A stretch of 37,102 bases of DNA from a bacterium. Its GTDB lineage: Bacteria > Patescibacteriota > Saccharimonadia > Saccharimonadales > UBA4665. The stretch spans positions 1 to 37,102 of the forward strand of contig JAJYDV010000006.1 of the NCBI GenBank assembly GCA_021777375.1. Reading direction: 5' to 3'. The translations under genes were made by a program, and so were the position numbers. This document shows, in pieces, positions 15,766 through 36,383 of this stretch; positions within the stretch are counted from its first letter, which is position 1, and each line of letters starts with the position of its first letter. The notes under the pieces were generated by a model, which saw only the letters and a program-made list of their open reading frames with translations, did not search any database and had not been told where the DNA came from.

Positions 15766-16242
15766 ATGGATGAAGCTACCCCCAGTAAACCTTCACACCA
15801 GATTCGCCCGACCAAAAAACAGCGTGAGTTACTTAACTATATCTCGGAATTCATTGCCGAGCATGGTTATAGCCCGAGCTACCGCGAAATTATGAACGGC
15901 CTTGGGTATAACTCCGTGGCGACTGTCGCTTTGCACGTCAGCAGTTTAATAAAACGCGGCCAATTAATTAAACGTGACCGTTCAGCTCGCTCTTTGGAGG
16001 TCGTAGGAGTGAATCCGGGCAAATCAGTACTTTTAACCAATGAGGTTACCCCGAACCAGGAAAAGTGGCTGATTGATAAGGTTGAACACCTTTTTCGTGA
16101 AGCAGAGCAGAGCGCCTTGCCTCAGCAAACCGAGGTAGATAATTTATTTGTTCTGATTGGCGCGCTCAAGGTTCTTGGCCTTGAGGCGGCGGCCCAAAGC
16201 TACTTACCACGCCTCAAAGCACTTAAAGCCAAACTAAGTTAA
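15766..16242 (+). CDS. LexA-like DNA-binding protein lacking the S24 protease domain
   Basis: 158 residues. Residues about 15-80 (PTKKQRELLNYISEFIAEHG, SPSYREIMNGLGYNSVATVALHVSSLIKRG) form a clear LexA-type winged helix with the recognition helix at SVATVALHV. The remaining 75 residues are helical and contain no Ala-Gly cleavage site and no Ser/Lys catalytic pair, so the protein cannot self-cleave like classical LexA. It may still bind an SOS-like operator or another site. It is transcribed behind the O-antigen-ligase-like gene and ends just before the riboswitch region. No obvious operator was found in the window. Confidence 0.8.
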   Translation: MDEATPSKPSHQIRPTKKQRELLNYISEFIAEHGYSPSYREIMNGLGYNSVATVALHVSSLIKRGQLIKRDRSARSLEVVGVNPGKSVLLTNEVTPNQEKWLIDKVEHLFREAEQSALPQQTEVDNLFVLIGALKVLGLEAAAQSYLPRLKALKAKLS

Positions 16243-16262: not shown

Positions 16263-16301
16263 CTATATGTAGCGTAGTAGTTTATGCGCTACACTATATA
16301 G
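16263..16301 (+). promoter_or_regulatory. Leader hairpin upstream of the riboswitch
   Basis: GTAGCG (16269-16274) pairs with CGCTAC (16287-16292); the flanking CTATAT (16263-16268) pairs with ATATAG (16296-16301) across a 3-base bulge. A TATACT at 16259-16264 could be the -10 of the leader promoter. The hairpin may be a stabilising 5' stem of the transcript or an operator. I cannot separate these. Confidence 0.4.
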
Positions 16302-16320
16302 CGATACTTTAAAAAGTAGA

Positions 16321-16412
16321 TTATACCGGAATCAGGTGAGAAACCTGAGCTGTGCCGCAACTGTAAGCTATGAAGGAATAAGCCTAACTTAGCAAGCCAG
16401 ACACGGTAGAAA
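16321..16412 (+). promoter_or_regulatory. Cobalamin riboswitch-like aptamer
   Basis: The conserved core of the B12-box family is readable in order: GGAA, then the short stem TCAGG (16332-16336) with CCTGA (16344-16348) around GTGAGAAA, then GCTGTGCCGCAACTGTAAG (16349-16367), then GCAAGCCAGACACGG (16392-16406). The outer stem TACCG (16324-16328) with CGGTA (16404-16408) closes the core perfectly. The segment between the two conserved halves is only about 24 bases, so the peripheral helices of large class I aptamers are reduced. These are Rfam RF00174-type signatures from memory; no covariance search was possible. Confidence 0.8.
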
Positions 16413-16422
16413 ACGAAATATC

Positions 16423-16495
16423 TCTCGAGCAAGAGACGCATAGGTAATACCTAAGACCCTCTTTCTTGAGATAGATGAAATAAGAGGGTATTTTT
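16423..16495 (+). promoter_or_regulatory. Riboswitch expression platform: switching hairpins over the Shine-Dalgarno site
   Basis: ACCCTCTT (16456-16463) pairs perfectly with AAGAGGGT (16482-16489), which contains the ribosome site AGAGGG seven bases before the ATG and is followed by ATTTTT: at once an SD-sequestering hairpin and a possible terminator. An alternative helix, TCTCGAGCAAGAG (16423-16435) with CTCTTTCTTGAGA (16459-16471), pairs at 12 of 13 positions (one G-T) and shares 16459-16463 with the first, so the two are mutually exclusive. This is an off/on switch geometry between the aptamer and the 448-residue protein. Confidence 0.75.
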
Positions 16496-17842
16496 ATGTT
16501 TCCCGAAGTGGTTCTCGAGCATCACAATGTTTGGCAGGAGCCAATCCGAGCTCTGCCCGTCTCTGAAGTTCTTGATGAGCGGCAAACACTTGATCAAACC
16601 ATCCGTTTTGCCGGTTCAGTTTTGGTGGAGCAGCTTGTCGAGCTGGCAGAGAATGCTCCGGCTAATTCTTTAATGGACGCTTTAAGGCTCGCGCGCCAGG
16701 GAGACCAAAGGGCCGTTAGTCTGGTGCGCGCCAATGTCGCAACCGACCTCATGGAGCGCACCATTAAAGCCGGTTTTGTCTCAATTAGCAAGATGGAGAT
16801 TACAAAGGATAGCCAACTGTTCCAGCACGGACAAAGCTACCGTTCGGTTCAGGCCAACAGTCTGCGCTATACCTCTCAACCGGTAATGCGGGAGCGGGTC
16901 TGGGCGGAAACCAAGAATTATTTCCGTCTTGAAAAGCTGATTAATGAGCACTTGCTTGATGAGTATAGCTTTGTAGTTTTCTCATTGGCCGAGCGGGACA
17001 TGCCGGAGTATTTCTATAGCGACACCAACACTCTGGCGATTCAGGTCAGTCGTCGCCAAGGAGATGAGCTTGTTACAGAGACCGCCTTTGTGGCCGGTAA
17101 GGACGAGAGCGGAAGAGAGCACGACCGCGAAGTGGTGAGTCAAATTTATAACCAGCTTCTTGACCACGCAATAGGGGATAAAATATTAACTTTTTCCAAC
17201 GCCGAGATACTCGACCATCCCTTATTAGTTCACAACTCATTTTTAGAAAACGGAGCAGTTGAATTAGTTAAAATATATGATGACCTAAACGGGGGAACCT
17301 TTTACGGTCAACAGCGCCCGCGCCAGGACTACTTAACCCATAAAGAAGAGTGCCAAAAGCAGGCACTAGGATACAGGGAAGCCTGCGATCAGGTAGCCAG
17401 TCAGTTAATTGCCCAGTCGCCCGGCTTAGATACTCCGCTTAAGGCTTCAATAATGCTCGATCGACTGTCTCGGGAGCATAGTTTAAAAATGGCGGTAGGG
17501 AACACCTGGGTCGATCCGAAAGTGTTTGGTGCAATTTCAGCAAAGCATATCTTGGCGGCCCGTGAAGCATTAGTCCGCGGTGACCAAGAGAAACTTGATA
17601 GGTCCATCTCTCAGGCCCGGCTTTTTGACACTTCCACTTCTTGCCCCGGAGCAGCAAGTAGCTTAATGTCCAGGCTTGGGCTGGGCGAAGTACTCAATCA
17701 GACCAGCGCATTGAAAGAAGATGATACAGACAAATACGGGTCGCTTTCTTTCTTTTGTCCGAAGGGTCACCTGAACACTCGGCCTAAGAATCATCTCATT
17801 GAGCGCTGTAAGGTATGTAAAATTAGCGTCAAATGCAGCTAG
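16496..17842 (+). CDS. Unrecognised protein under riboswitch control, C-terminal zinc ribbon
   Basis: 448 residues, soluble, no signal peptide or TM helix. I do not recognise the family. The N-terminal two thirds are mixed helix/strand and rich in Glu, Gln, Asp and Arg; a TSTSCPGAAS stretch lies near residue 380. The C-terminus is a metal-site candidate: C421-x3-H425, C438-x2-C441 and C447 (CPKGHLN...ERCKVCKISVKC). It shows none of the ribonucleotide reductase, methionine synthase, methylmalonyl-CoA mutase or B12 transporter motifs that usually sit behind cobalamin riboswitches. The ATG follows AGAGGG by seven bases and that site is inside the switching hairpin. Codon usage looks like its neighbours, so recent transfer is not indicated. 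Confidence 0.9.
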   Translation: MFPEVVLEHHNVWQEPIRALPVSEVLDERQTLDQTIRFAGSVLVEQLVELAENAPANSLMDALRLARQGDQRAVSLVRANVATDLMERTIKAGFVSISKMEITKDSQLFQHGQSYRSVQANSLRYTSQPVMRERVWAETKNYFRLEKLINEHLLDEYSFVVFSLAERDMPEYFYSDTNTLAIQVSRRQGDELVTETAFVAGKDESGREHDREVVSQIYNQLLDHAIGDKILTFSNAEILDHPLLVHNSFLENGAVELVKIYDDLNGGTFYGQQRPRQDYLTHKEECQKQALGYREACDQVASQLIAQSPGLDTPLKASIMLDRLSREHSLKMAVGNTWVDPKVFGAISAKHILAAREALVRGDQEKLDRSISQARLFDTSTSCPGAASSLMSRLGLGEVLNQTSALKEDDTDKYGSLSFFCPKGHLNTRPKNHLIERCKVCKISVKCS

Positions 17843-17870: not shown

Positions 17871-18035
17871 ATGACTAGAGCCTTAACGGTCAATCTCAAG
17901 CCAGCAATCTTACCCTCACTGTATTCAATCTGTTATAACCGTGCCGTTTATTTAATTAATAACCTAGCATCGGGTCGTTACCTAAGCTCTAAACTATCAA
18001 CTTGGCAGTGCGTTGAAGGACTAATGAACCTATGA
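17871..18035 (+). CDS. Small ORF translationally coupled to nadD
   Basis: 54 codons (MTRALTVNLKPAILPSLYSI... to ...WQCVEGLMNL) whose TGA overlaps the nadD ATG as ATGA. A -10-like TAAAAT (17859-17864) lies six bases before this ATG; an earlier in-frame ATG at 17865 abuts the -10. No homologue is recognised. It may be a small protein or a translated leader that delivers ribosomes to nadD. Chance opening of a 165-base frame is possible. Confidence 0.4.
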   Translation: MTRALTVNLKPAILPSLYSICYNRAVYLINNLASGRYLSSKLSTWQCVEGLMNL

Positions 18036-18625
18036 AGCAACGGCGCATCGGTATCTACAGCGGAACCTTTAATCCAGTCCATGCCGGACACGTCAGTTTC
18101 GCTTTGCAGGCGCTCAAGGGAGCTAAACTGGACCGAGTTTATCTGATGCCTGAACGCTATCGCCCGCATAAAATCGATGTTGCGCACTATGGTCACCGGG
18201 TAGCCATGATACGCCAGGCAATTAAGCCGCACCGATCTTTAGGTATTATTGAAAATAGCGACATTACATTTAGCGTGGCAAAAACCCTCCCGAAACTTAT
18301 AAACCAATTTAAGGACGCCAAACTGGTCTTTCTCATGGGTTCAGATACTTTGAGCAACTTGCCGCAGTGGGAAGGCGTTAATCATTTACTGAAAGGCAGC
18401 GAGCTGGTGATTGGGGTTCGTGAGGGTGATGAAGCGGCGATTACTAGCTGGCTTGCGGCGTTGCCTCTCAAACCTAGCGCCGTCCATCTGATCACTAGTC
18501 TGAAACCAGCCGTTTCATCAACCAAAATACGCGAAGCTCTCAGACGGGATGAACATACCGATGGGATTCTGCCCAGTGTTCGGCGGTATAGCAACCGTAA
18601 CTGGTTATATATCTCCCTGGCTTAA
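18032..18625 (+). CDS. nadD: Nicotinate-nucleotide adenylyltransferase-like protein
   Basis: 197 residues. It shows the nucleotidyltransferase motif IYSGTFNPVHAGHVSFA (about 8-24) with the HxGH-type element, a MPERYRPHK loop, FLMGSDTLSNLPQW (substrate/ribose side) and the C-terminal SSTKIREAL. These define the NadD family, which makes NaAD from NaMN and ATP in NAD synthesis. It lies alone between the riboswitch-controlled gene and a long intergenic gap and is preceded by a possible coupled small ORF. Confidence 0.85.
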   Translation: MKQRRIGIYSGTFNPVHAGHVSFALQALKGAKLDRVYLMPERYRPHKIDVAHYGHRVAMIRQAIKPHRSLGIIENSDITFSVAKTLPKLINQFKDAKLVFLMGSDTLSNLPQWEGVNHLLKGSELVIGVREGDEAAITSWLAALPLKPSAVHLITSLKPAVSSTKIREALRRDEHTDGILPSVRRYSNRNWLYISLA

Positions 18626-30125: not shown

Positions 30126-30521
30126 CTATGCTCCTCGTACTATTACATGTTCGCCGGGTTCAAGGCACGGCACTACCGACATCATATGATTATGGCGTAC
30201 TTCGATCATTTTGCTGCCTGCTATGCGGATGTCATTCGTGCAGTGAGAGTACCCAGCCTGGTCGGGCGTACAATTTTTGTCAGTAGTGACAACTCCGGTC
30301 ACAGCACCGCTGGGCATAGTGCCTTTTAGGAGCACAGTGGTAAGATGGCCTGGAGTAGAGATCGTCCCTGAATCGCGGGTAAGTTGTACGACACGCTCGG
30401 AACCAGAAGGAGTTACGCTATTATTGGGCGAAGTTGTTCCCTTATTACCAATAATTGCTAGGCTGATTACTCCAATAATGGCTACGCTAACTGCGAGAGT
30501 AATAAAAACTCGCCGGTTCAT
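30126..30521 (-). CDS. Anchored exported protein of the copper module
   Basis: 131 residues from MNRRVFITLAVSV. The ATG at 30521 is chosen because a GGAGG lies seven bases upstream and the start overlaps the stop of the P-type ATPase as ATGA; a longer frame upstream only shadows the ATPase. One N-terminal TM helix (about 5-25) is followed by a small beta domain with NCTPDQAGYSHCTNDIRI and VRHNHMMSVVPCLEPGEHV, so three Cys, three His and a Met pair could bind metal. The CTPD...C...H-x-HMM...C-x-PGE pattern recalls a small actinobacterial family. Probably holds or hands over Cu outside the membrane (inference). Confidence 0.75.
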   Translation of the reverse strand: MNRRVFITLAVSVAIIGVISLAIIGNKGTTSPNNSVTPSGSERVVQLTRDSGTISTPGHLTTVLLKGTMPSGAVTGVVTTDKNCTPDQAGYSHCTNDIRIAGSKMIEVRHNHMMSVVPCLEPGEHVIVRGA

Positions 30522-32653
30522 TCCGTTGCCTCCTTGAGCTTCAAACGGCGCAGGAACTGCGCGTTGAAGGCCACGATGATGGTAGATAATGACATCAGTA
30601 TGGCACCGATAGCAGGCGACAGCACAAAGCCTAAGCTCGCCGTCACGCCAGCCGCCAGCGGAATGGCAAAGGCATTGTAGCCGGTTGCCCACGCCAGGTT
30701 CTGCTGCATCTTACGGTAAGTTGCCTTGGATAGCTTGACAACCTTGGCCACGCCGCGCGGGTCGCTAGAAGCTAGGACAATACCGGCTGATTCAATAGCT
30801 ACGTCCGTGCCAGCGCCTATAGCAATGCCGATGTCAGCTTGCGTTAGGGCCGGAGCATCATTTACTCCATCGCCGACCATGGCCACTCTGCTGCCGTCCG
30901 CCTGCAGCTGCTTGACTGTTTCTGCCTTATTCTCTGGCAATACTTCGGCAAAGTATTCTTTGATGCCCAGCTCTTTTGCTGCCCAGGCGGCCACACCCTT
31001 ATTGTCGCCGGTTAACATAGCTACGCGTTTGCCCATGGCATGCAAAGTATCGACTGCTTCCTTAGACTCTTCACGAATAACGTCAGCCAGCATGACAGCG
31101 CCGCGCACAGTCTTATGTTGGTCAATCACGTATACGACAGTTTTACCCTCCTCAGATGCCAGTTCCGCAGCCTTTTTAAGTGTTTCGGACATGTTGGCGT
31201 TCAGTTCTTGTACCAAGCGCGGACCGCCAACATATACTTCATGGCGACCCATAACTACTGCTTTGGCGCCGCGTCCGGCGAGCGAGGTAAAGCTTGACGC
31301 TTGCGGGACTTTTCGGTTTTGATCGTTGGCCGCCTTAACTATGGCCCGTGCTATAGGGTGCTCTGATTCGGCTTCGACTGCCGCCGCTATGCCGAGAAGT
31401 TCTTGCTTGTTGTCGTCGGTCACGATATCTACTACGCCTTGCTCGCCTTTGGTAAGCGTGCCGGTTTTATCAAAGAGAATCACGTCAATGTTACGGGCAG
31501 CTTCCAATGCCATGCGCTGGCGGATGAGCAGGCCGTTCTTAGCGGCCAGTGTGGTTGAAATAGCTGTAACGAGCGGAATAGCTAAACCAAGGGCGTGCGG
31601 GCAAGCAATGACCAGCACCGTAACGACCCGGGCCAGAATAAAGGTTGCTGGCTGGTTGCTGAAGATTGCCCACCCCAGTAGCGTAATTACTGCCGCGCCT
31701 ATAGCTATAAATGTCAGATAAAATGCCGCCCTGTCGGCCAGTATCTGAGTTTTGGACTTGCTGCTCTGGGCTTCCGCAACCAATTTCATAATTCCGGCCA
31801 GAGCGGTGTCGTCACCGATCTTACTGACCCGCACTGTCAGTGATCCACTACCGTTGATAGTTCCAGCCACAACTTGCGCTTTGACCACTTTTTTGACCGG
31901 TTTGGATTCGCCGGTCAGCATTGATTCATTGACGTCGGACTCACCCTTTACGACTTCACCATCGGCCGGCAGTTTGGCGCCTGGCCGTACCAGCACCTGA
32001 TCACCTACCTTCAGCTCACTGACAGCTACTTTCTTGGTACCGTCTTTGGTAATAAGTTCGGCTTCGTCGGGCAGTAGTTTAGCCAGTTCTTTTAAAGCTC
32101 CTTGGGCATTCTGCACCGAAGCCATCTCCATCCAATGGCCGAAGATCATGATGGTGATTAGCGTGGCAAGTTCCCACCAAAAGTCCATGCCGTGGAGTAA
32201 TTTGAGCGTTATGGCCAGGCTGTAGCCCAAGGCCACGGTGATGGCCATTGCTATCAGGGTCATCATACCGGGCTGGCGGCCTTCTATTTCAACTTTGGCG
32301 CTCTTTAGGAATACCAGGCCGCCGTACCAGAACAGGATGAGGCCAAAGACCGCCGAGATGTATTCGCTGCCGCTGAATGTCAGGCTGTAGTGCAGCCAGT
32401 GTTGGATGGAGTTTGAAAATACCAAAACAGGAATGGTTAGCGCCAGGCTCCACCAGAATTTCTGCTTGAACATGTTGGGGCTATGACCAGCATGTTTGTC
32501 GTGATCCGTGTGCTCCATGCTCTCATGGCCATGCTTTGGTGTACGCTTGGTTGGCACGAGCTGCATGCCGCATTCCGGGCACATACCAGGCCTATCCTGT
32601 TGGATATCCGGATGCATGGGACAGGTAAAAGTTTTGCCTATTTCATCGGTCAT
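30518..32653 (-). CDS. copB: Heavy-metal P1B-type ATPase, CopB-like
   Basis: 711 residues. The N-terminus carries a heavy-metal-binding domain (9-35: CPMHPD...CPECGMQLVP) and a His-rich segment (KHGHESMEHTDHDKHAGH). Core motifs are TGES 247-250, the membrane metal site CPH 351-353, the phosphorylation site DKTGT 395-399, the HP motif (EHPIARA) and GDGVND 594-599. CPH in place of CPC marks the CopB (P1B-3) subgroup, usually exporting Cu(II) or Cu(I). It lies between two exported metal-site-like proteins in one minus-strand unit led by a CsoR-like repressor, so induction by metal is expected. Confidence 0.93.
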   Translation of the reverse strand: MTDEIGKTFTCPMHPDIQQDRPGMCPECGMQLVPTKRTPKHGHESMEHTDHDKHAGHSPNMFKQKFWWSLALTIPVLVFSNSIQHWLHYSLTFSGSEYISAVFGLILFWYGGLVFLKSAKVEIEGRQPGMMTLIAMAITVALGYSLAITLKLLHGMDFWWELATLITIMIFGHWMEMASVQNAQGALKELAKLLPDEAELITKDGTKKVAVSELKVGDQVLVRPGAKLPADGEVVKGESDVNESMLTGESKPVKKVVKAQVVAGTINGSGSLTVRVSKIGDDTALAGIMKLVAEAQSSKSKTQILADRAAFYLTFIAIGAAVITLLGWAIFSNQPATFILARVVTVLVIACPHALGLAIPLVTAISTTLAAKNGLLIRQRMALEAARNIDVILFDKTGTLTKGEQGVVDIVTDDNKQELLGIAAAVEAESEHPIARAIVKAANDQNRKVPQASSFTSLAGRGAKAVVMGRHEVYVGGPRLVQELNANMSETLKKAAELASEEGKTVVYVIDQHKTVRGAVMLADVIREESKEAVDTLHAMGKRVAMLTGDNKGVAAWAAKELGIKEYFAEVLPENKAETVKQLQADGSRVAMVGDGVNDAPALTQADIGIAIGAGTDVAIESAGIVLASSDPRGVAKVVKLSKATYRKMQQNLAWATGYNAFAIPLAAGVTASLGFVLSPAIGAILMSLSTIIVAFNAQFLRRLKLKEATE

Positions 32654-32671
32654 AATGCTTCAATCCCAAGT

Positions 32672-33301
32672 TCACTTCCGTCGGCTTGTAGCACTAGTTT
32701 TTGTTCTCCGTGTCGGATTAGAGCGATGTATCCATCCATATGCTCCGGCAACGATCGCGATGGCTAACAATGCCGCCAACGTTGTATCCATGCCATTCCA
32801 AGAACTGTTGTTATAGCCGTACATCATAGTACCGTTGTCGCCGCCAGCGAGTCGGTCATTCATCATGCCGCTTATAAAAGAGGGGGTATTGGTAGGAATG
32901 GCGGCGTTGGTTTGGCAGCCGCTGCCTCGCTTGCCCCAGGCTATGTGGACATCGGTATCGCCTTGGTCGCCCATCATTTGCTGTATATTGTTATCCCAGT
33001 ACACATGGTTTTCAGTACTACCAGCCGATAGCCCCATGAAGTATTCACCCAGTTTTTCGTAGTCGTTATCGGTCAGCTTTTGGCAGGAAGTCTTACCGCT
33101 TTGCAGGTTGTTATATATCGCCTGACCGGCATTTTGCATATTAGTCTCATCCTGAAGCTCGCTTTGGGAAGGCGGTTTTTGTCCTTGATAACCCCCCATC
33201 ATTTGTGCCGAGACCATCGGCGAGAAAGTTAAAAAGGCAATCGATATCAAACTGATGGCAACGTAGGCTCCAACTCTTGGTTTTTTAATGCGATCTATCA
33301 T
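32672..33301 (-). CDS. Exported Met-rich protein with C-terminal TM helix
   Basis: 209 residues. N-terminal signal helix (about 10-31, ending VSAQ), a mature domain rich in Met and Asn (MMGGYQGQ, IQQMMGDQGDTDVHIAWGKRGSGC, MMNDRLAGGDNGTMMYGYNN), two Cys (TSCQKL and GSGC), then a TM helix (about 175-190) and a basic tail. Met-rich outside domains in copper clusters often bind Cu(I), so a sensor or scavenger role at the membrane is plausible but inferred. It lies eight bases after csoR and 18 before copB. Confidence 0.75.
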   Translation of the reverse strand: MIDRIKKPRVGAYVAISLISIAFLTFSPMVSAQMMGGYQGQKPPSQSELQDETNMQNAGQAIYNNLQSGKTSCQKLTDNDYEKLGEYFMGLSAGSTENHVYWDNNIQQMMGDQGDTDVHIAWGKRGSGCQTNAAIPTNTPSFISGMMNDRLAGGDNGTMMYGYNNSSWNGMDTTLAALLAIAIVAGAYGWIHRSNPTRRTKTSATSRRK

Positions 33302-33309
33302 ATGCCCCC

Positions 33310-33600
33310 CTACTTATTATTGGCCCTTATGTTGGTAAGCTCGTATAGATCAAGTAATTCCTGGGTAGCGTGTTGTCGGCGCTTGTCGCTGCCGGAAGAG
33401 AAGTCCTCTTTGATGTGGGTCTTAAGGTGGTTTTCCAATATAAGTTTGTTAAGAGAACTGAGTGATTTTTGAATAGCCAGCGACTGCGTGATTATGTCCA
33501 TACAGTAATCCTCGTTTTCGATCATTTTTTCAATACCTTTAAGCTGTCCTTGAAGGATCTTACTGCGGTGCAATGCTCTACGTTTAATGTCGTCAATCAT
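33310..33600 (-). CDS. csoR: CsoR/RcnR-family metal-responsive repressor
   Basis: 96 residues, all helical: a RSKILQGQLKGIEKMI helix, then DYCMDIITQSLAIQKSL with Cys33, then ENHLKTHIK with His58 and His62. The ligand set reads Cys-His-His, where classic CsoR has Cys-His-Cys and RcnR has Cys-His-His plus an N-terminal His. The neighbours (CopB ATPase, Met-rich proteins) argue for copper, the ligands leave Ni/Co or another cue open. It is the first gene of the minus-strand unit and sits right at a perfect operator palindrome in its own promoter, so it should autoregulate. Confidence 0.88.
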   Translation of the reverse strand: MIDDIKRRALHRSKILQGQLKGIEKMIENEDYCMDIITQSLAIQKSLSSLNKLILENHLKTHIKEDFSSGSDKRRQHATQELLDLYELTNIRANNK

Positions 33601-34755: not shown

Positions 34756-34838
34756 TGTCTAAATTCTTCAAGAAGTTAATTATCTCGAGTCCTGCTAGGA
34801 TAATTGGGGTCTGTTGACCATAGCAAACACTAAAAATC

Positions 34839-34866
34839 TTGATATTGATGAACATGTAATTATAAT
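34839..34866 (+). promoter_or_regulatory. Promoter of the AbrB/PIN pair
   Basis: TTGATA (34839-34844), 16 bases, TATAAT (34861-34866). The ATG at 34877 is ten bases after the -10, so the leader is only a few bases long. Confidence 0.6.
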
Positions 34867-34876
34867 AGTAGTTACT

Positions 34877-35140
34877 ATGAATAGATACATTACTACAGTC
34901 ATTAGAACCGGTAACTCGTATGCGCTGCGGGTTCCAAAGCAATATATTAACGACGCGAATCTGCAGCTAGGGCAAAAAGCTATCATACAGCTACCCATTC
35001 CTGAAGCTAAGCAGAATCGAGCCCGAGTTCAAGCACTTTTTAAGCAACTCCAGGAGCTTGGAGCTTACAAAGACATTAAAGACCCGGCCACTTGGCAGCG
35101 AGAAATACGCAAAGATCGACCGCTGCCTAGTAGAACCTAG
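34877..35140 (+). CDS. AbrB/MazE-type antitoxin
   Basis: 87 residues from MNRYITTVIRTGNSYALRVPKQY. The N-terminal 45 residues form a SpoVT/AbrB swapped-hairpin DNA-binding domain (VIRTGNSYALRVPKQYI...LGQKAIIQL), followed by a helical, charged tail (RARVQALFKQLQELG) that would wrap the toxin. The longer upstream frame is rejected because it would run through the promoter. The gene ends one base before the PIN toxin start, the usual antitoxin-first order, and should autoregulate its promoter. Confidence 0.8.
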   Translation: MNRYITTVIRTGNSYALRVPKQYINDANLQLGQKAIIQLPIPEAKQNRARVQALFKQLQELGAYKDIKDPATWQREIRKDRPLPSRT

Positions 35141-35141
35141 T

Positions 35142-35501
35142 ATGACTCTTCTTGATACGAACATCTTTATATACATTGCAAATGGTACTCTGCCTACTGA
35201 GATTATTGCTAAGACAGACATTGGGCATGCAAGTATCACTAAAATTGAAGCTCTCGGTTTTTCGACTATACCCGCAAACGAATTGTTAATACTTTCGAGT
35301 CTGTTCAATGAGTCATATAACATGCCGTTGACTGATGCGGTAGTTGACCGAGCTGTCCAGCTAAGACAGGCAAAAAGGATGAATCTTGGCGACGCCATAA
35401 TTGCTGCTACTGCTTTAGAGTATGACCTTGAGCTATGGACGGTGAACATTGAAGACTTTAAGCATATTGAAGGCATGAAAGTAGTCAACCCGTTACAGTA
35501 A
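35142..35501 (+). CDS. PIN-domain toxin (VapC-like ribonuclease)
   Basis: 119 residues starting MTLLDTNIFIYI. PIN acidic residues are in place: Asp5 (LLDTN), Glu36 (SITKIEALG), Asp84 (NLGDAIIAATA) and Asp105 (TVNIEDF), the set that binds Mg2+ for RNA cleavage. A longer frame upstream overlaps the antitoxin and is rejected. VapC-type toxins usually cut tRNA or rRNA and are held inactive by the cognate antitoxin; here that is the AbrB-type protein one base upstream. Confidence 0.87.
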   Translation: MTLLDTNIFIYIANGTLPTEIIAKTDIGHASITKIEALGFSTIPANELLILSSLFNESYNMPLTDAVVDRAVQLRQAKRMNLGDAIIAATALEYDLELWTVNIEDFKHIEGMKVVNPLQ

Positions 35502-35620
35502 GCTTTCTAAACTTCATATGGAGTCCGCGGGGTTCTAGTATGACGCGGTAGCGTAAGCACAACAGCGGTGCATTTCCTAAAAGCTTATTCCACCGACTCA
35601 ACTCCGCCAAGACAAGGTTT

Positions 35621-35683
35621 CAATTCGAATGTACATGGGCGACCAAATCATGCACTCAAAGTACGAGGCCGTGCTCCATGACC
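35621..35683 (+). repeat. Island repeat copy 2: degenerate tRNA-fMet 3' end plus flank
   Basis: CAATTCGAATG to GGGCGACCA (35621-35645, 25 bases) keeps T-loop and CCA spacing, and the flank AAATCATGCACTCAAAGTAC, GAGGCCGTGCTCCATGACC closely follows copy 1. About 95 bases earlier CGCGGGGT (35526-35533) equals the 5' end of the tRNA, so this may be the shell of a decayed tRNA with an insert. Confidence 0.7.
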
Positions 35684-35723
35684 TTTAAGCTCGAATAATT
35701 AATCTGTTATCAATAAATAATTA

Positions 35724-35752
35724 TTGACACTAATAAATCAGAAAGTTAGCAT
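35724..35752 (+). promoter_or_regulatory. Promoter of the RHH/PIN pair (leaderless)
   Basis: TTGACA (35724-35729), 17 bases, TAGCAT (35747-35752), six bases, ATG at 35759. The predicted first base is the A of the ATG. Confidence 0.65.
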
Positions 35753-35758
35753 ATTGTC

Positions 35759-36028
35759 ATGAGTACTATGAGCTTTTCAGTAGAAGAAGACATTAAGCGT
35801 GATTTTACGGCGTGGGCTAAACGCGCTAAAAAATCAAAGAGTGATTTATTCCGCGACATGATATATATCTACCAGTTTAACCAACAACTCGACAAAAATA
35901 CCGAGAAGTATGATACCGTGCTAGATAAACTTGGCATTCAGTCCGAGAACGAGCTCTATGAATATTTGGAGAACGATGAAACCTATAAAGACCGTATTCG
36001 ACACCAACGTCTATCTGGCAGCAAGTAA
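35759..36028 (+). CDS. Ribbon-helix-helix antitoxin
   Basis: 89 residues. MSFSVEEDIKRDFTAWAKRAKKSKSDLFRDMI is a ribbon-helix-helix motif (strand, helix, KKSKS turn, helix), followed by a charged tail with NTEKYDTVLDKLG. It overlaps the PIN toxin by 53 bases in another frame. The ATG at 35759 is preferred from the promoter spacing; 35768 is an alternative. It should repress its own promoter as dimer or toxin complex. Confidence 0.75.
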   Translation: MSTMSFSVEEDIKRDFTAWAKRAKKSKSDLFRDMIYIYQFNQQLDKNTEKYDTVLDKLGIQSENELYEYLENDETYKDRIRHQRLSGSK

Positions 36029-36383
36029 ACAAAGTAGCTACGCTCGAATACAGTTACAGCGAGCAAGGCCGAATGGGCCGTATCAACTCTATATTTCCCC
36101 GGAGATTATTATAGAGATACGAAGCAAGCTTGAATTAAAGTTTGGTTATACGGCTGAAGAGTCAGGGATATTTATTGAGATGGTCATGATATATGCAACA
36201 TTAATTCAACCGAAACAAAAAATAAGCGGAGTTTTAAAAGATGCTGCTGACCATATCATTTTAGAATGCGCTCTTGAAGCAAACGCCAAGATGATAGTAA
36301 GTGCAGACAAGGGCCTACTTAGGCTGAAAGAATTTCGAGGTATTACCATTATTCATCCTACCATGTTGCAATACCTAACTTAA
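35976..36383 (+). CDS. PIN-domain toxin (PIN_3 / COG1569-like)
   Basis: 135 residues from MKPIKTVFDTNVYLAAS. PIN acidic residues are Asp9, Glu47 (SPEIIIEIRS), Asp89/Asp92 (LKDAADHII) and Asp111 (SADKGLL). The ATG at 35976 follows GGAG by five bases, inside the antitoxin gene; longer frames upstream are shadows of the antitoxin. The family is annotated as PIN-type toxin of TA systems. It lies between repeat copies 2 and 3 as a separate cassette. Confidence 0.8.
   Translation: MKPIKTVFDTNVYLAASKQSSYARIQLQRARPNGPYQLYISPEIIIEIRSKLELKFGYTAEESGIFIEMVMIYATLIQPKQKISGVLKDAADHIILECALEANAKMIVSADKGLLRLKEFRGITIIHPTMLQYLT

Follow-up and report, generated by a model that had tools for sequence, protein, structure and literature searches.

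In the genome of a member of the Saccharimonadales, we found a genuine cobalamin riboswitch in front of a gene for a probably soluble protein, and the arrangement recurs in related genomes, the order-wide riboswitch target being an undescribed family tied to B12. We consider it somewhat probable that this riboswitch acts as an OFF switch and represses a soluble protein that helps to capture, handle or conserve cobalamin for the class II ribonucleotide reductase of the organism. The elements on which this view is based are located as follows in the window, i.e., the whole stretch of 37,102 nucleotides that was analysed.

15766–16242 (+): LexA-like DNA-binding-domain protein of 158 aa, no peptidase domain (PF01726, E 3.8e-13)
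16267–16457 (+): cobalamin riboswitch aptamer, full Rfam match (RF00174, 39.6 bits, gathering cut-off 31.5)
16290–16295 (+): putative -10 element TACACT; related loci are mostly TGnTAnAnT-like here
16325–16407 (+): covarying aptamer core with P3, the P5 hairpin and the B12-box GCTGTGCCGCAACTGTAA
16422–16435 (+): aptamer 3' element CTCTCGAGCAAGAG (J6/3 region), from the minimum-energy fold of 16310–16498
16456–16489 (+): predicted OFF hairpin ACCCTCTT/AAGAGGGT, terminator-like or Shine-Dalgarno-sequestering, followed by ATTTTT and then ATG
16496–17842 (+): 448-aa protein, predicted to be soluble, the riboswitch-controlled family member and next ORF after the riboswitch
17642–17644 (+): codon of the invariant Cys383, part of [SG]-C-[GPAS] in most members and apart from the zinc ribbon
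17756–17839 (+): C-terminal zinc-ribbon-like segment C421-x3-H425 / C438-x2-C441 / C447, read from the sequence
18032–18625 (+): NadD-like nucleotidyltransferase (PF01467, E 5.9e-20), located downstream in many related loci

A preliminary description of this DNA had proposed a cobalamin-riboswitch leader at this place, and the Rfam search bears it out. The RF00174 match exceeds its cut-off with an E value of 9.4e-07 when the whole window is searched and 8.1e-09 when 321 bases are searched, RF00174 is the top-scoring model in the window (above one lower match of the same clan), and the match is the only one to this model in the organism's own genome (724 kb, 97.9% complete). In the core, P3 is formed by 16325–16328 paired with 16404–16407 and the P5 hairpin occupies 16332–16348, the covarying core and the 3' element together spanning 16325–16435. 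Covariation was assessed on 42 distinct related leaders, which were chosen by motif and are thus biased toward well-formed ones, with exclusion of the variable arm between the two conserved blocks. In this sample, P3, P5 and two further core helices (14 pairs) display standard pairs in 99.0% of cells, compared with 75.3% in shuffles and 20–38% when the helices are slid. Double-sided changes were observed in 147 cells against 42.6 in shuffled leaders, and the covariation score reaches 0.666 versus 0.194 for the control. These results confirm that the window element is a genuine cobalamin riboswitch, and a chance B12-box was rejected on the basis of the four covarying helices and of the linkage to the family reported below. 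The riboswitch belongs to a known class, and its ligand would be a cobalamin, probably AdoCbl.

The B12-box elements had also been described as bounded by closing stems. P3 and P5 covary, but a P1/P2 closing stem is doubtful because the first portion of the RF00174 match (16267–16324) overlaps a promoter-like -10 region recurring in related loci. Indeed, a -10-like motif is present 24–58 nt 5' of the core GGAA in 76 of 83 loci, with an extended TG in 53, so that transcription of the leader probably begins close to the core, which would leave it without a normal P1. In the window itself, a sigma-70 consensus scan called no site at 16290–16295. Besides, an inverted repeat (TGTAGCG / CGCTACA, 16268–16293) overlaps the putative -10 element, and TAGCGTA...GCTACAC-like motifs recur 5' of related loci. 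This repeat may be an operator, perhaps one bound by the LexA-like protein encoded next to it, whose gene is retained upstream of the riboswitch locus in most of the relatives inspected.

The regulatory element extends beyond the Rfam match as far as the start codon. The hairpin at 16456–16489, which carries the Shine-Dalgarno sequence in its 3' arm, has a computed energy of -12.5 kcal/mol when folded alone (z -2.34), and its 5' side (16459–16470) can pair with the aptamer 3' element in a duplex of -10.5 kcal/mol (z -2.5). In the minimum-energy fold of the whole leader (16310–16498, z -3.44), CTCTCGAGCAAGAG pairs with CTCTTTCTTGAG and breaks the hairpin. This ability of the 5' arm to pair with the aptamer suggests an OFF switch, and we infer this direction for the riboswitch. 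Of 70 related leaders, 52 have an equivalent terminator-like hairpin, also containing the Shine-Dalgarno sequence, ahead of the start codon, compared with a mean of 5.65 and a maximum of 9 in dinucleotide shuffles of these 70. Complementarity of the 5' arm to the aptamer element is above that of shuffled arms (z < -1.5) in 32 of the 52 leaders and weak (z > -1.5) in the other 20. The resulting mechanism is well supported in silico. When B12 is plentiful, the ligand would hold the aptamer, the hairpin would form and the gene would be silent; under B12 shortage, pairing of the aptamer 3' element with the hairpin 5' arm would free the Shine-Dalgarno sequence and allow the protein to be made.

Across the order, RF00174 matches are found in 100 of 149 relatives, and a profile of 74 rows detects the family in 124 of the 149. 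A family member lies 3' of the riboswitch on the same strand in 96 of the 100 riboswitch-positive relatives, at 22–450 nt in 92 of them and 1039–1131 nt in four. This count of distances omits G050, G055, G087 and G124, the four riboswitch-positive genomes in which the family profile has no match; the first three possess DUF6580 genes. In G124, a riboswitch-like element of 27.4 bits is found 5' of an unrelated acidic protein of ~559 aa, probably disordered (L098, 2825–4501, minus strand). Iterated profile clustering of the long ORFs 3' of riboswitches placed 76 of 78 in one family, the two exceptions being NrdA in G046 and the acidic protein of G124. For genomes in which RF00174 made no call, we inspected ten family loci for an upstream riboswitch. 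Two of them (L018 and L132) score above the cut-off of RF01689, which is their best model, three (L128, L133 and L017) have weaker Cobalamin-clan matches, and four (L016, L020, L031 and L131) exhibit a B12-box and partner motifs by eye with model scores at most at chance level; the last one (L022) is a contig fragment that begins inside the family gene and comprises no upstream DNA. The switch thus appears to be present in all nine loci whose upstream DNA is available. Homologues keep the riboswitch, and the refuting case named in the preliminary description, homologues lacking the leader, did not materialise.

Beyond the order, the family profile finds little, since out of 380 genomes sampled from the phylum it matches 13, and nine of these are inside the order; cobalamin riboswitches are present in 73 of the 380. 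Four loci of other Patescibacteria (L138, L139, L140 and L146) contain riboswitch-controlled proteins of 302–443 aa with a similar layout, i.e., an SCP or CG motif and, except in L146, a terminal zinc ribbon. For their homology to the family, hhalign gave probabilities of only 0.3–30%. Viral contigs yielded neither a relative of the window protein, of another member or of a small alignment, nor a match to the riboswitch pattern. A literature search, which reached little of the subscription literature, retrieved no paper in which a cobalamin riboswitch or this family is connected with Saccharibacteria or Patescibacteria.

The ORF directly 3' of the leader encodes the 448-residue protein announced in the preliminary description, which had rightly depicted it as unrecognised and devoid of known B12-pathway motifs. 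Searches in Pfam, NCBIfam, PHROGs and PADLOC returned no relative, only weak and inconsistent matches below cut-off, and a PDB profile search with the whole and core family alignments found none either, the best match to a solved structure having an E value of 0.14. Structure predictions based on two rows, the window protein and that of L002 (Candidatus Saccharibacteria MAG, the nearest named relative), gave mean pLDDT values of 40.3 and 38.8, too poor for a fold search. Among the identities considered, the MrpR/tyrosine-recombinase catalytic domain (PF22823) was rejected at 13.4 bits for a cut-off of 27, a reductase or B12-independent isozyme was rejected since the target has no Pfam or NCBIfam match, and a corrinoid adenosyltransferase (PF02572, PF01923) was rejected since it matches neither family. 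The target protein likewise has no match to the B12-binding domain PF02310, and no homology to cobalamin-binding, transport or modifying proteins was found.

A membrane-like segment is lacking in 73 of 74 family members, the exception being located at a doubtful start codon. The maximal 19-residue hydropathy is 0.87 in the window protein and exceeds 1.6 in one of the 74 members, and no signal peptide is evident in the family. The absence of membrane-like segments indicates that the family protein is not itself a transporter, and a transporter identity (DUF6580 or another membrane protein) was rejected for want of transmembrane segments. The family protein is thus predicted to be soluble and probably cytosolic. 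As to the zinc ribbon emphasized in the preliminary description, the metal site is present in the window protein (C421-P-K-G-H425, C438-K-V-C441 and C447), but the type and spacing of the ribbon differ widely between members, and the conserved residues of the family body are E87, S163 and the isolated Cys383, the latter kept in 73 of 73 aligned members reaching that position. Judging from the aligned members, the family is not defined by its C-terminal zinc ribbon, which is an appendage of variable form.

The family also diverges faster than its neighbour genes. In G003 and G008, which belong to the same genus, identity is 68–70% for the LexA-like gene and 66% for NadD, whereas the family protein falls below BLASTP detection at 60% coverage; the profile still finds it. 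In addition, 12 of 69 complete family members end with Ala-Ala, compared with 2.4% of ORFs in the retrieved loci, and these ends are reminiscent of an ssrA-like degron.

An aspect absent from the preliminary description is that the organism is a B12 consumer, equipped with a class II reductase and a CobA-type adenosyltransferase. Its ribonucleotide reductase (L106, 2948–5722, beside NrdR) is of the AdoCbl-dependent class II, with an NF005122 score of 1358 bits for a cut-off of 859 and a further match to PF08471. The CobA-type adenosyltransferase is encoded at C13:148197–148733, and CobA/BtuR (PF02572) is found in 91 of 100 relatives. Neither a PduO-type adenosyltransferase nor a B12-binding-domain enzyme was found in the own genome; the absence of the latter leaves the class II reductase as the only B12 user found. 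B12 would thus serve deoxynucleotide synthesis and nothing else as far as searched.

The family follows this reductase in other genomes. Among genomes at least 95% complete, 24 have the class II enzyme and 21 of these contain the family, compared with 0 of the 20 that lack the enzyme (Fisher 1e-9); this p-value overstates independence because most negatives belong to one clade (f35). These figures are drawn from 72 genomes scored with NF005122 and were tallied by hand, five family-negative genomes being deduced by elimination. Within clade f35, the class II enzyme is confined to G320 and G451, and so is the family gene, which lies behind a cobalamin riboswitch match in both. Conversely, G099, G122 and G130 have class I-type enzyme matches only and no family gene, CobA also not being above cut-off in G099 and G122. 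Contrary cases exist, since G021 and G108 combine the family, the riboswitch and CobA with no reductase match, and several class II genomes have no family member. As the riboswitch-protein pair occurs mostly where the class II enzyme is, the function of the protein probably lies in supplying B12 or in coping with its shortage.

The other genes placed behind these riboswitches help to distinguish between the two. In G030, G047 and G062, the riboswitch is followed by a DUF4430-type protein, a DUF6580-type membrane protein and then the family gene; in G050 and G055, DUF4430- and DUF6580-type genes stand behind the riboswitch and the family gene is absent; and in G019 a second riboswitch precedes a DUF4430/DUF6580-type pair. 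Pfam assignment was run for G030 and DUF6580 was searched in all, the other DUF4430 calls being made by eye. DUF4430 is found as a C-terminal domain in transcobalamins (PMC4350170). Such pairs directly behind cobalamin riboswitches (L108, L085, L115, L070, L112 and L092) are candidate cobalamin uptake genes, and similar pairs were seen by eye in other Patescibacteria (L141, L148 and L149). Besides, a second riboswitch match is located directly 5' of class I NrdA in G046 (L107, 99–4002, with NrdB) and G081 (C26, 10991–13465). Since the riboswitch precedes both DUF4430/DUF6580 pairs and NrdA, it governs B12-linked genes in the order. Elsewhere in the window, translations examined by eye include a gene resembling those of copper-type P-ATPases, close to a CsoR-like regulator (30518–33600), as well as two PIN-domain-like ORFs that, together with an AbrB-like antitoxin, may be toxin-antitoxin genes (34814–36383).

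Because putative uptake genes occupy the same place as the family, acquisition or handling of cobalamin is favoured over a backup function, short of proof. Acquisition or handling is the likeliest role of the protein, with about an even chance, and a B12-sparing backup comes next. The organism would probably obtain B12 from its surroundings, and the family protein would keep the AdoCbl-dependent class II reductase working. A more specific version, which we advance tentatively and hold to be plausible without being probable, is that the family is a new order-wide cobalamin acquisition or chaperone protein of these ultrasmall epibiotic bacteria, which would keep the class II reductase supplied, perhaps bind cobalamin via the invariant Cys383, and evolve quickly because the B12 source (host or neighbour) varies. 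If so, the riboswitch-controlled proteins of similar layout in other Patescibacteria would be further family members. The interpretation given in the preliminary description is thus partly supported: a scavenging or trafficking role gains indirect support, and the B12-substituting function stays as a rival reading.

According to that rival, which we regard as unlikely, the protein does not acquire B12 but stands in for, or assists, the provision of deoxynucleotides during cobalamin shortage. Cobalamin riboswitches elsewhere control the B12-independent isozymes NrdAB or MetE, the NrdA genes of G046 and G081 show that this logic exists in the order, and the strong tie of the family to genomes with a class II reductase would fit as well. 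However, the family is unrelated to reductases or nucleotide-salvage families, it appears to be cotranscribed with genes of the DUF4430/DUF6580 type in G030, G047 and G062 and is replaced by them in G050 and G055, and G046 retains the family protein despite its NrdAB. Less likely still, the protein could act outside B12 metabolism, e.g., in host contact or competition, with B12 shortage as a mere cue. The Saccharibacteria group has a host-dependent lifestyle, and both the divergence of the family seen in G003 and G008, much faster than that of its neighbours, and its variable zinc ribbons would suit such a role. Yet, the lack of a membrane-like segment and of an evident signal peptide argues against it, as does the absence of the family from near-complete genomes without a B12-dependent reductase, although these belong mostly to one densely sampled clade. 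Finally, a decayed or coincidental B12-box in front of a constitutive gene, for which the modest RF00174 score and the overlap of the 5' part with a promoter-like element could be invoked, is very improbable in view of the covariation in four helices, the invariant B12-box, the sequence conservation, the linkage to the family and the conserved expression platform.

Host-dependent Patescibacteria possess very small genomes, many of which encode a ribonucleotide reductase that depends on B12. The preferred reading, in which the riboswitch-controlled family supplies or conserves cobalamin for this enzyme, bears on how these bacteria obtain the cofactor, and it points to a single gene, a single switch and a testable cofactor dependency order-wide. 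The family is also a clean target for structural genomics, as its regulation is conserved and its annotation absent. Besides, this work offers a native riboswitch for a group still in need of an inducible expression system, which is yet to be developed (PMC11665869).

Compared with known systems, the window element shares with RF00174 and with AdoCbl-II (RF01689) the B12-box, P3, P5 and J6/3 elements in order; it scores above the RF00174 cut-off, and some family loci exceed that of RF01689. It differs from both in being short, since in elements of this type P1/P2 is reduced or missing and the peripheral arm is usually short, in the promoter-like -10 just 5' of the core, and in its target, a new protein family. 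The regulatory logic is the same as that of riboswitches preceding class I NrdAB or MetE, as seen with NrdA in G046 and G081, but the window target is neither a reductase nor a methionine synthase. CobA/BtuR, present in most relatives, is expected to act on imported cobalamin, whereas it is encoded by a separate gene elsewhere and bears no resemblance to the window protein. The DUF4430 and DUF6580 genes occupy the same chromosomal place behind the same riboswitch, sometimes ahead of the family gene in an apparent operon; these encode membrane or exported proteins, that of DUF6580 being a small membrane protein, whereas the family protein is predicted to be soluble and is unrelated to them in sequence.
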